Below are positions 38,611 through 41,093 of a stretch of 42,484 bases of DNA, one piece after another. The stretch is from Acidimicrobiia bacterium (lineage in GTDB: Bacteria > Actinomycetota > Acidimicrobiia > Acidimicrobiales > AC-14): assembly GCA_023265025.1 (NCBI GenBank), contig JAHFUP010000013.1, forward strand, positions 37,549 to 80,032, written 5' to 3'. Made by a program: the position numbers and the translations under genes. The notes beneath the pieces are model-generated. The model had not been told where the DNA came from. It saw only the letters and a program-made list of their open reading frames with translations, and made no database searches. Position 1 is the stretch's first letter; every line of letters begins with the position of its first letter.

Positions 38611-39570
38611 GTGCCGTCGGTCGAGGTCGTCGATAGCTCCCCCGACGACTTCTTCGCCGGCCAGACCGACGCCGGCGCCTACGTCGCCCGGACGATCGCC
38701 GGCGAGGTCATCCTCACCCCGAAGCTGGCCGGCGAGTTCGCCGGCGACTCCCTCCCCGAGGGCTGGACGGTGACGCCCTGGGTCGAAGGGGGCACCGGCA
38801 CGTTCCGTGACGGCATGCTGAGCCTGGACGGCGCCAGCCTCCGGTGCGAGCCGCTCTTCCTCAGCCCTCGCGCCCTGGAGTTCTCCGCCGTCTTCGCCGC
38901 CCGGCCCGACCAGCACGCCGGCCTGGGGGTCAACTTCGTCGACGTCCCGTGGGTGAAGTTCAGCACCAAGTGGGGCCGGCGGCTCTACGGCCGGACCCAC
39001 CTGCTCACCATCGAGGACAAGCAGTTCTCGGCCGACCTGTTCGACGCACCGCACCGCTTCCGCATCGACTGGAACATCCTCGACATCATCTTCTCCGTGG
39101 ACGCCACCCGCCTGGCCCACCTGATGGTGCCCATGCCGGGCTACATGCGGGCGCTGGCCGCCAACGAGCGCCTCGGAAAGCAGCCACTGCGCATCGAGTG
39201 GATGCGCCTCTCGCCGTACGCGCCGCAGGGCCGGTTCACCTCCCGGGTGCTCGACGCCGGCACGGTGGCCGAGTGGCACGACGCCGTCTGGGAAGCGGAC
39301 GTCCCCGAGCCGACCAGCCTGAGCCTGGAGGTCCGCACGGGCGACAGCCTCCGTCCCGGCCGGTCGTGGTCACCGTGGCGCCCGCTGGCGCAACCGGGCG
39401 CCCCGATGTCCGCCAGGTCCCGGTACCTGCAGTACCGGGCGCTGCTGGCGACCGCCGACCCGTCCTGGACGCCGGCGCTCCGCGAGGTCCGGGTGCGCTA
39501 CTCCGCCGCAGGCGCCGGCGGGGTGTCCTCCAGCAGCTTGGTCTCGGGCAGGGCCTTGGGGTGCCAGTGA
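38611..39570 (+). CDS. Unrecognised beta-rich (ConA-like) protein
   Basis: 319 residues from the GTG at 38611 (an ATG at 38548 would add 21 residues of low-complexity sequence). No signal peptide. The first two-thirds look like a concanavalin/lectin-type sandwich (LEFSAVFAARPDQHAGLGVNFVDVPWVKFSTKWG, FRIDWNILDIIFSVDATRLAHL). The last third matches a module found at the ends of many bacterial enzymes (FTSRVLDAGTVAEWHDAVWEADVP through SRYLQYRALLATADPSWTPALREVRVRY). The final 20 or so residues are Ser-rich and come from a 73-bp overlap with the convergent amine-oxidase-like gene. Carbohydrate binding is plausible but not shown. Confidence 0.7.
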   Translation: MPSVEVVDSSPDDFFAGQTDAGAYVARTIAGEVILTPKLAGEFAGDSLPEGWTVTPWVEGGTGTFRDGMLSLDGASLRCEPLFLSPRALEFSAVFAARPDQHAGLGVNFVDVPWVKFSTKWGRRLYGRTHLLTIEDKQFSADLFDAPHRFRIDWNILDIIFSVDATRLAHLMVPMPGYMRALAANERLGKQPLRIEWMRLSPYAPQGRFTSRVLDAGTVAEWHDAVWEADVPEPTSLSLEVRTGDSLRPGRSWSPWRPLAQPGAPMSARSRYLQYRALLATADPSWTPALREVRVRYSAAGAGGVSSSSLVSGRALGCQ

Positions 39571-41093
39571 CCGGGGACGAGGTCGGGCCCCACCCGCTCG
39601 GCGCCGGTGCCCGGGTGTCCGACGTGCACGCCGTACCAGACCACCACGTCCTTGCTGTGGATGCCCTCGCCTGAGACGTACCGGTCAAGGCCGGCCCGGG
39701 CCAGGGCCGGGTCGGCCGTGAAGCCCTGGTGGTCGTCCATCTCGTCGGGGCTGTAGGCCAACACCCAGAGGTCGCCGGCACCAAAATCGTCTGCGGTGCC
39801 GTCGTCGGGCCCCGGCAAGATCGAGTACTCCCGGCCGTCACGGTCGTGGCGGACCAGCCAGTACCGGCCGTGCGCCGGGTCCCTGGGGCGCTTGACCTCG
39901 AAGCGCATGAAGTGCCAGCGGGTCTCGCCCCGTATCGGCGGGTCGTTGAACTCGCGCAGCACGTTCGACCCGGGCGCCAGGATGTCGAAGTCCAGCCGCC
40001 AGTAGGCGTGGTGGACGTGCGGCTGGCACGTCACCGAGTTGGTCCCCGCCGAGCACCCGAGCCGGGGCCGGATCGTCCCGTCGGCGGCCAGCCGCCACTC
40101 GTTGACGTACCGGTAGGGGCCGGCCTCCAGCTGGCTGGAGATCACGACCTCGTCGTCACCGGCCCACAGGGCGACGCCCCGGAACCCACCCCCGTCGGTC
40201 CCCCTCTCCAGGATGGTCTCGGGCCTCGCGGTGCACACCCGGAAGCCCGCCACCGGGTCCTCGCCCTCGGCGACGAACGCCGCCTCCTCGTAGGCCCAAT
40301 GGCGCTCGGCCCCGCCGGTCTCGTCGAAGCGGACGTTCAGGATCGGAAGGTGCGCCCGTTGCAGCACCCGGGCGCCGAGGTAGTCGACGGTGCGCAGCTC
40401 GACGCCGGAGCCGTTGGTCCCCGACGAGGCCGCCGGCCGGACGACGACCATCTCCCAGAGCAGGATCTCGCCCTGCCACACCCGCACCCGGGCCTGGCGG
40501 GCGGCGCCCGGTACGGCCGGCGCCGCGGCCTCAGTCGGGGCGCCGCACTCCTCGGTCGACGGCGCCGGCGCGTTGGCCGGCTCCCGGAGGATCTCGCCGT
40601 CGGCGGTGCGAACGCCGACGATGCGGTGCTCGCCGGCGGTCGACCGCAGGCCGACGGCCACCGCCCGGTCGAGATTCCCGTCGGGGTCGTGGAAGCTCAC
40701 CAGCGTCGGCATCGGGCGGTACGGGACCAGTTCTCCACCCTCGATGAGCACGCCGAGAATGTGGTCCTCCTTGAGCAGGTCGACCGCCCACCCGAACTCG
40801 TCGTCGGTAGGCGGCCGCTGCCACGCCGCGTTGTTCAGGGTCGAGTACTCGAGCTCGTCGAAGCGACCATCGGCCAGGATCACCCGGCCGCTGTCCATGT
40901 CCTGGATGGTGGCGGTGAATCGCTGGCCGGCCTCGACGCCCTTGTCGACCACGTCATGGGCCACGATCCACAGGTCGCGACCGGCGAAGTCCACCTGGAT
41001 CATGTCGTGGGTGAACAGGGCCTTGGTGGCCTTGGCGATCTCCTGCTCGTACTCGACCTCGGGGACGACCTCGATACGCAGCGGTTCCGGCAC
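39498..41093 (-). CDS. Copper amine oxidase-like protein with altered cofactor motif
   Basis: 531 residues. The chain follows the copper amine oxidase core: GPYRYVNEWRLAADGTIRPRLG occupies the place of the topaquinone motif, PHVHHAYWRLDFDIL (His359 and His361) that of the two copper ligands, and WYGVHVGHPGTG (His490/His493) that of the third. In active enzymes the cofactor Tyr sits in N-Y-D/E; here Tyr327 is flanked by Pro and Arg (PYR), so self-processing to topaquinone is doubtful. No signal peptide. The GTG start has TAGGTT 6 nt upstream. The gene overlaps the convergent ConA-like gene by 73 bp. It may be an inactive relative or use a different cofactor. Confidence 0.75.
   Translation of the reverse strand: MPEPLRIEVVPEVEYEQEIAKATKALFTHDMIQVDFAGRDLWIVAHDVVDKGVEAGQRFTATIQDMDSGRVILADGRFDELEYSTLNNAAWQRPPTDDEFGWAVDLLKEDHILGVLIEGGELVPYRPMPTLVSFHDPDGNLDRAVAVGLRSTAGEHRIVGVRTADGEILREPANAPAPSTEECGAPTEAAAPAVPGAARQARVRVWQGEILLWEMVVVRPAASSGTNGSGVELRTVDYLGARVLQRAHLPILNVRFDETGGAERHWAYEEAAFVAEGEDPVAGFRVCTARPETILERGTDGGGFRGVALWAGDDEVVISSQLEAGPYRYVNEWRLAADGTIRPRLGCSAGTNSVTCQPHVHHAYWRLDFDILAPGSNVLREFNDPPIRGETRWHFMRFEVKRPRDPAHGRYWLVRHDRDGREYSILPGPDDGTADDFGAGDLWVLAYSPDEMDDHQGFTADPALARAGLDRYVSGEGIHSKDVVVWYGVHVGHPGTGAERVGPDLVPGHWHPKALPETKLLEDTPPAPAAE

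Follow-up and report, generated by a model that had tools for sequence, protein, structure and literature searches.

The locus and its genes

The window analyzed here, that is, the whole stretch of 42,484 nucleotides, contains a gene whose product resembles copper amine oxidases (CAOs), with a methyltransferase gene on one side and a convergent gene on the other (Table 1). The reading frame of the CAO-like gene lies at the coordinates that the original prediction, made from the sequence alone, had assigned to it. A gap of 9 bp separates the CAO-like gene from the methyltransferase gene upstream, and 73 bp at the 3' end of the CAO-like gene are shared with the convergent gene. A simple gene caller supplied the bounds of the convergent gene and of the genes in the unannotated loci discussed below. 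The convergent protein has no Pfam match, and as a single sequence it has no match in the PDB; a five-sequence profile of it found only Semaphorin-5A in the PDB, at an E value of 0.052, and a search of plasmid records with the convergent protein returned no match.

Table 1. Genes and residues of interest at the locus, with positions in the window
Feature	Position	Strand	Description
Convergent gene, 319 aa	38611..39570	+	Bounds by simple gene caller
CAO-like gene, 531 aa	39498..41093	-	GTG start, intact ORF; N-terminus without strong hydrophobicity
H490-V-G-H493	39615..39626	-	Extra histidine H490, then third copper histidine H493 (hhalign, site table)
H359-V-H361-H362	40008..40019	-	Copper HxH followed by extra family-invariant histidine (hhalign, site table)
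P326-Y327-R328-Y329	40107..40118	-	Column of the TPQ motif N-Y-D/E-Y (gap-free in hhalign; site table)
E270	40284..40286	-	On the catalytic-base Asp column in the site table; uncertain, gaps adjacent
F256	40326..40328	-	Column of the conserved active-site Tyr (site table)
H248	40350..40352	-	Family-invariant histidine, mostly Ser in the CAOs tabulated (site table)
Class I SAM-dependent methyltransferase gene, 283 aa	41103..41954	-	Pfam Methyltransf_25, 1.2e-13

Homology to copper amine oxidases

Searches with the single sequence gave thin matches. The Pfam scan of the window protein returned a lone weak match to PF01179 (Cu_amine_oxid; 26.4 bits against a cut-off of 27, E 4e-6) that spans residues 436-493 only, and when three other members of its family were scanned, two scored above the PF01179 cut-off and one below it. 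The match to the NCBIfam model for primary-amine oxidase was also weak (20 bits against a cut-off of 651), and phmmer found no match among PDB sequences up to an E value of 1 when the window protein was used alone. Because the single-sequence matches are thin, evidence at the level of the family was needed. A profile built from nine family sequences matched the Arthrobacter phenylethylamine oxidase (AGAO) in the PDB with an E value of 9e-5; the best stretch of this match covers profile positions 395-498, and the TPQ column lies outside it. Furthermore, alignment of the family profile with a nine-member CAO profile by hhalign extended over 479 columns (probability 98.6%, E 7e-16) and covered residues 12-511 of the window protein, showing that the region preceding the catalytic domain also matches. 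The PDB profile match and the hhalign result together rule out a chance resemblance to CAOs, and by these alignments the window protein is a CAO homologue over nearly its whole length. The identity is low: 19% and 16% with the two CAOs compared (L013 and the E. coli copy in L031, respectively). AlphaFold2 models, made with two relatives, were poor both for the whole protein (mean pLDDT 35.1) and for residues 196-520 (mean pLDDT 34.4), and we make no claim about geometry from either.

The highest mean hydrophobicity over 15 residues near the start of the protein is at most 1.33 in all eleven family members, and the same measure gives 1.66-2.76 in the Streptomyces-type and L039 proteins described below. 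Because its N-terminus is without strong hydrophobicity, the family protein is suggested to be cytosolic.

The cofactor site and the copper ligands

In CAOs, a tyrosine beside three copper-bound histidines modifies itself into topaquinone (TPQ). The hhalign alignment sets the window segment G-P326-Y327-R328-Y329 on the CAO segment G-N-Y-E-Y without a gap, in agreement with the original prediction that proline replaces the asparagine before the tyrosine and that arginine replaces the acidic residue after it. The prediction that the copper HxH and the third histidine are present was also borne out, as H359, H361 and H493 align on the CAO ligands. Two MAFFT alignments agree with hhalign on the TPQ, HxH and third-histidine columns. 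A better-placed N-Y-D/E motif had been named as one finding that would overturn this reading; no NY motif was found anywhere in the 531 residues of the window protein, which excludes another N-Y-D/E as the true active-site motif.

Two features of the window protein had been overlooked in the original prediction. One is the phenylalanine F256 in the column of the conserved active-site tyrosine, which we take to be Y284 of AGAO and Y305 of HPAO-1. The other is the presence of the invariant histidines H248, H362 and H490.

A family of eleven related proteins

The window protein belongs to a family of 11 distinct sequences from ten genomes, one of which (G598) carries two. The closest relatives, found on genome contigs, are 82% (L004) and 80% (L005) identical to the window protein, and within the family identity to the window protein goes down to 38%. 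Whole genomes supplied further members. Plasmid-borne relatives are present in Variovorax sp. WDL1 and Nonomuraea gerenzanensis; the WDL1 protein occurs on two plasmid records (L006 and L008) and was counted once. In a tree of 29 catalytic-domain sequences, in which the other tips are 11 CAOs, five Streptomyces-type proteins and two long-branch relatives, the 11 family members are set apart by a branch that has a support of 100/100 and a length of 1.69; as the tree is unrooted, with a midpoint used for drawing, the word clade is justified provided that the root falls outside these members. Neither the tree nor the site table includes the fragments L016 and L023.

Among 396 genomes sampled evenly from the phylum, at least four contain clear members (the window's genome, G200, G211 and G598), a lower bound because no more than three candidates were scored in each genome. 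PF01179 matches at an E value of 0.001 or better occurred in 36 of the 396, including Streptomyces-type and L039-type proteins and the family member of G598. The window's genome (98% complete) gave no PF01179 match at that threshold, and its assembly yielded no ordinary CAO. Seven places in six of the 396 genomes matched a degenerate DNA pattern for HxHH[FY]WR. Five of these places are family members (G000, G200, G211 and two in G598); the places in G012 and G250 have no matching open frame of 60 residues or more and were taken as chance. No encoding locus was found in viral contigs scanned with the family profile, the CAO profile and one relative, nor was there a match in phage records searched with a relative or in PHROG searched with two members.

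Ten of the 11 members have an open frame, and that of L003 is cut off where its contig ends. In G211 the ORF is unbroken over 518 aa, and the one reported stop is taken as the stop codon of the gene itself. The dN/dS ratio of the window gene (Nei-Gojobori) is 0.20 against each of its congeners L004 and L005; the values involving two more distant relatives (0.40-0.67) are less trustworthy, as synonymous sites are GC-biased.

Conserved and altered sites

The residues at the relevant columns were compared in a site table of 60 rows: 11 family members, 40 ordinary CAOs, five Streptomyces-type proteins, three L039-type proteins and one protein from Microvirga. Five loci were omitted as repeats of loci already in use; one of these, L079 (G152), repeats L037, which was not tabulated, so that one ordinary CAO with NYEY is missing from the count of 40. 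The region of H490 and H493 is beyond the contig end in L003, leaving 10 family rows covered there.

The TPQ consensus N-Y-D/E is found in none of the 11 family rows, whereas it is present in 39 of the 40 ordinary CAOs, the exception being the HYDY of Leisingera. In the family, the residue before the tyrosine column is Trp in eight rows and Pro in three, the column itself holds Tyr in eight, Phe in one (L005) and His in two (L024 and L025), and the residue that follows is Arg in every row, giving a group-wide signature of [W/P]-[Y/F/H]-R-Y. The question raised earlier, whether the PYR variant forms a conserved clade, has a divided answer: the proteins do form one group at 100/100 support, but the exact PYR is carried only by the window protein and L004, which are of the same genus, and a clade defined by PYR itself is therefore rejected.

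HxH, and likewise HxHH, is present in all 11 family rows. The third copper histidine is present in 8 of the 10 covered rows and is absent in the same two that have His in the tyrosine column. The earlier statement that the copper ligands are kept applies, by alignment, to the window protein, but not to these two members. According to the tree, the change from Tyr to His together with the loss of the third histidine is a single event in two sister sequences.

The active-site tyrosine column holds Tyr in all 40 CAOs and in nine family rows; the window protein and L004 have Phe there. At the catalytic-base column the family has Glu (11/11) and the CAOs Asp (40/40), in a region flanked by gaps that an earlier MAFFT alignment placed differently. 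As judged by alignment, the family lacks the base loop, the RPEDWP segment that follows the third histidine, and the long insert before HxH.

Histidines H248, H362 and H490 are invariant wherever covered (11, 11 and 10 family rows, respectively). The H490 column holds Gly in the 40 CAOs and the five Streptomyces-type rows and Phe in the three L039-type rows. Apart from the covered family rows, Microvirga alone has His in this column, and H362 accompanies H490 in each of these 11 rows. The H248 column has His in one CAO as well (Leisingera), and strict pairing of H362 and H490 is contradicted by the CAO of Halarchaeum (L033), which combines H362 with Gly490. The patterns at these three columns are, in the rows tabulated, strong tendencies and not strict rules. 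H362 directly follows a copper histidine and H490 precedes one by three residues; in a regular strand, both side chains would face away from the metal.

Genomic neighbourhood and co-occurrence

The arrangement seen in the window recurs. All five Acidimicrobiia loci (the window, L028/L004, L005, L024 and L025) have the methyltransferase gene upstream and a convergent gene that overlaps the CAO-like gene by 70-109 bp, and the gap to the methyltransferase gene is 9-12 bp in four of the five. In L005, about 4.5 kb containing a Mutator-family transposase gene and a MEDS-GGDEF gene separates the methyltransferase gene from the CAO-like gene. Because this transposase-bearing segment splits the two genes, the L005 copy, which is the member with Phe in the tyrosine column, may be under relaxed constraint.

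Within the taxonomic family to which the window's genome belongs, the three genes are found together in the same 5 of 10 genomes, and none of the three was found in the other five at the thresholds used; three of these five are of one genus, and they are 70-90% complete. Outside the Acidimicrobiia, inspection by eye of the neighbouring gene lists, several of them from short contigs, found no such methyltransferase or convergent gene next to the family members. In Variovorax, the gene has a galactose-oxidase-like protein encoded on one side of it and a tyrosinase-domain protein on the other, and a single small hypothetical gene stands between it and the tyrosinase gene. The domain type of the convergent protein was detected in seven of 213 genomes of the class besides the window's own, and none of these seven is among the nine genomes that match the family profile. 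In the four such open frames that were read (L110, L112, L113 and L114), the domain lies inside longer, extracellular-looking multidomain proteins.

Discussion

By its defining motif, the window protein is not an ordinary amine oxidase. The original prediction suggested an enzyme with a different chemistry, or a binding protein. At the level of the group this suggestion stands, because the tyrosine has been lost in 3 of the 11 members, which favors non-TPQ chemistry or binding. For the window protein itself the suggestion holds less well, since Tyr327 and all three histidines remain, and it may still have a tyrosine cofactor, residual or altered. With Pro or Trp and Arg flanking the site, and Phe or His in place of the tyrosine in three members, the family as a whole is poorly explained by TPQ chemistry. 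The reading that we favor, with a confidence somewhat better than even, is that the gene encodes a cytosolic, quinone-free metalloprotein, predicted to be built on the CAO scaffold.

Such a site would hold one divalent metal, which could be copper or possibly zinc, manganese or iron, on three histidines, with an unmodified Tyr327 as the fourth ligand in most members, and with Arg328 and the histidine pair H362/H490 tuning the site. In the members that have exchanged Tyr for His and lack the third histidine, the new histidine would take over, preserving a site of three histidines; this looks like ligand exchange, in a single case represented by two sister sequences. For such a resting state the CAOs themselves offer a physical precedent: until TPQ forms, their metal is bound by the precursor tyrosine, still unmodified, together with three histidines, and zinc can occupy the site (PMC3382800). 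In the Acidimicrobiia, the protein, the adjacent methyltransferase and the convergent protein would probably act together on the same substrate. The most likely role of the CAO-like protein would be that of a metal-dependent enzyme, and the most likely function of the window protein is putatively that of a quinone-free metal protein working with the neighboring methyltransferase.

The main alternatives concern how much of the CAO activity is left. On the one hand, the tyrosine-bearing members, including the window protein, might continue to make TPQ, or a related cofactor derived from tyrosine, and act as oxidases of an unusual amine, which we consider unlikely. This would fit the retention of Tyr327, Tyr329 and the three copper histidines in the window protein, the alignment of Glu270 with the base column, and the prevalence of Tyr at its column, where it is still the commonest residue (8/11). 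It would also fit mutants described in the accessible part of PMC3382800: yeast-enzyme mutants at the neighboring Asn and Glu still make TPQ, although less of it or more slowly, with 5-10% of TPQ remaining in the Asn-to-Ala variant of HPAO-1 and biogenesis slower by an order of magnitude in the Glu-to-Gln variant, and among replacements at the base position of the E. coli enzyme, Glu alone left some activity, with a kcat 6.4 x 10^4 lower. However, in the family both flanks are changed together, to Pro or Trp and to Arg, a combination absent from the mutants in that part of PMC3382800. Furthermore, the window protein has Phe at the conserved active-site tyrosine, and according to the same source the corresponding Tyr-to-Phe change disturbs biogenesis in HPAO-1. 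The missing base loop, RPEDWP segment and pre-HxH insert, and the three members without the tyrosine, also argue against a TPQ enzyme.

On the other hand, catalysis may have been given up altogether. Within the module, the CAO fold could serve to bind a ligand or to provide structure, its histidines being used for packing or hydrogen bonds, with no metal-dependent reaction. The reduction of the substrate-channel and base elements, the loss of the third histidine in two members and the recurrence of the convergent partner's domain in extracellular-looking multidomain proteins would all be in line with such a pseudoenzyme. Yet all 11 family rows retain HxHH and all 10 with coverage retain H490, down to 38% identity with the window protein, and the number of copper-site histidines is preserved when a ligand is lost, which makes this account rather unlikely in our view. 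That the gene is a decaying CAO gene without function is very improbable. The active site is off consensus, and a PF01179 match at an E value of 0.001 or better is absent from the window's genome, as might be expected of decay; but the frame is open in every member not cut by a contig end, synteny and invariant residues are conserved, and the purifying selection indicated by the dN/dS of 0.20 against the two congeners largely refutes a pseudogene.

Returning to the quinone-free metalloprotein, a bolder version of it can be put forward, tentatively and with the expectation that it will more probably fail than hold. The family may be a new class of metalloenzyme that has abandoned the quinone and kept its three-histidine centre by ligand exchange, in which H362/H490, possibly with others, would form a second metal site or a proton relay, and whose new reaction, either hydrolytic or dependent on oxygen, would in the Acidimicrobiia be coupled to the methyltransferase.

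If the quinone-free reading is true, a natural group shows what the CAO scaffold does without its quinone, and its variants could be used to test in what way cofactor formation is controlled by the consensus residues. The group would also be a warning that homology alone is a poor ground for annotating such genes as amine oxidases.

Comparison with known systems

Among the literature searched, by titles and the starts of abstracts, no bacterial CAO group without the TPQ motif was reported; as subscription journals were mostly outside this coverage, novelty is unproven. By its alignments the group is a variant of the known CAO fold, not previously reported in the literature covered. In a study of plants and animals, a plant CuAO clade (clade I, zeta) is described as being without the T/S-X-X-N-Y-D motif (PMC12058724). 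This clade may not be a true precedent. Its motif, which we take to be N-Y-E, would still be TPQ-competent.

Several homologues share part of the features of the family. The fragment L016 resembles it in the tyrosine and HxHH region, which is all that the fragment shows. The CAO-like protein of Microvirga ossetica (L029) shares HxHH, H490, the third histidine and the tyrosine, which is followed by His; unlike the family members, it does not fall in the group of 11 but sits on a long branch of unsure place, and its domain is followed by repeat units. The short Streptomyces-type homologues (L040-L044; the genus label is inferred), with the motif G-W-Y-E-Y, have kept the copper histidines and have Trp before the tyrosine, as do 8 of the 11 family rows, but they differ from the family by the acidic residue after the tyrosine, the lack of H362 and H490, a hydrophobic N-terminus and their separate group in the tree.

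The closest well-known relatives are the bacterial CAOs of PF01179, such as AGAO and E. coli TynA, with which the window protein shares homology over nearly the full length, the HxH and the third copper histidine. In contrast to these enzymes, the window protein is without the TPQ consensus and has Phe for the active-site tyrosine, and the family as a whole is without the base loop, the RPEDWP segment and the insert before HxH, and has extra invariant histidines.

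Overlap with the convergent gene

In all five Acidimicrobiia loci that were read, the gene of the copper amine oxidase (CAO)-like protein and the convergent gene opposite it overlap at their 3' ends. In two of these family members, L024 and L025, one strand of the overlap encodes an Asp/Glu-rich tail and the opposite strand a poly-Ser tail. The domain of the convergent gene occurs further in the class (loci L110-L118), and in all four open frames that were read (L110, L112, L113 and L114) it is part of a longer, extracellular-looking protein. At a contig end, genome G517 has a second copy of the methyltransferase gene and, after it, the initial 79 aligned residues of a CAO-like gene (L023); this may be a strain variant or an assembly redundancy of Acidimicrobiia locus L028.

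Coordinates of the features discussed
Feature	Location
CAO-like/convergent gene overlap	window 39498-39570
CAO-like/convergent gene overlap	L024:9177-9249
CAO-like/convergent gene overlap	L025:4425-4512
Second methyltransferase copy and CAO-like gene start	L023 = G517:C180:2842-3078
Variovorax sp. WDL1 plasmid 3 gene cluster with CAO-like gene	L006:6839-13602
Microvirga ossetica plasmid CAO-like protein	L029:6791-9575
Leisingera caerulea plasmid CAO, annotated hypothetical protein	L030:7221-9137

CAO-like proteins on plasmids and in other groups

In the Variovorax cluster on plasmid 3, four adjoining genes encode an FG-GAP-repeat protein with a tyrosinase domain, a small hypothetical protein, the CAO-like protein and a galactose-oxidase-like protein; an integrase gene is close by. 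Plasmid 2 (L008) has the same gene order, and the cluster is present on two plasmid records. Judged by their size, the "plasmid" records L007 (Nonomuraea, 11.85 Mb) and L031 (E. coli, 4.8 Mb) are evidently chromosomes.

The M. ossetica protein, apparently divided between two annotated genes of which the second carries C-terminal repeat units, has both the HxHH motif (the copper HxH plus an extra His) and the equivalent of H490, another family-invariant histidine. In the L. caerulea protein, the Asn of the topaquinone (TPQ) motif is replaced by His (HYDY) and the copper histidines are retained.

In a further CAO-like group (L039, L104 and L105) the TPQ column reads G-[E/N]-Y-V-L-Y, and the copper HxH reads HVHYPFWR. 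L040-L044, short CAO homologues of about 440 residues from large genomes of one genus, have a hydrophobic N-terminus and retain the copper histidines, and their TPQ column is G-W-Y-E-Y rather than N-Y-E-Y.
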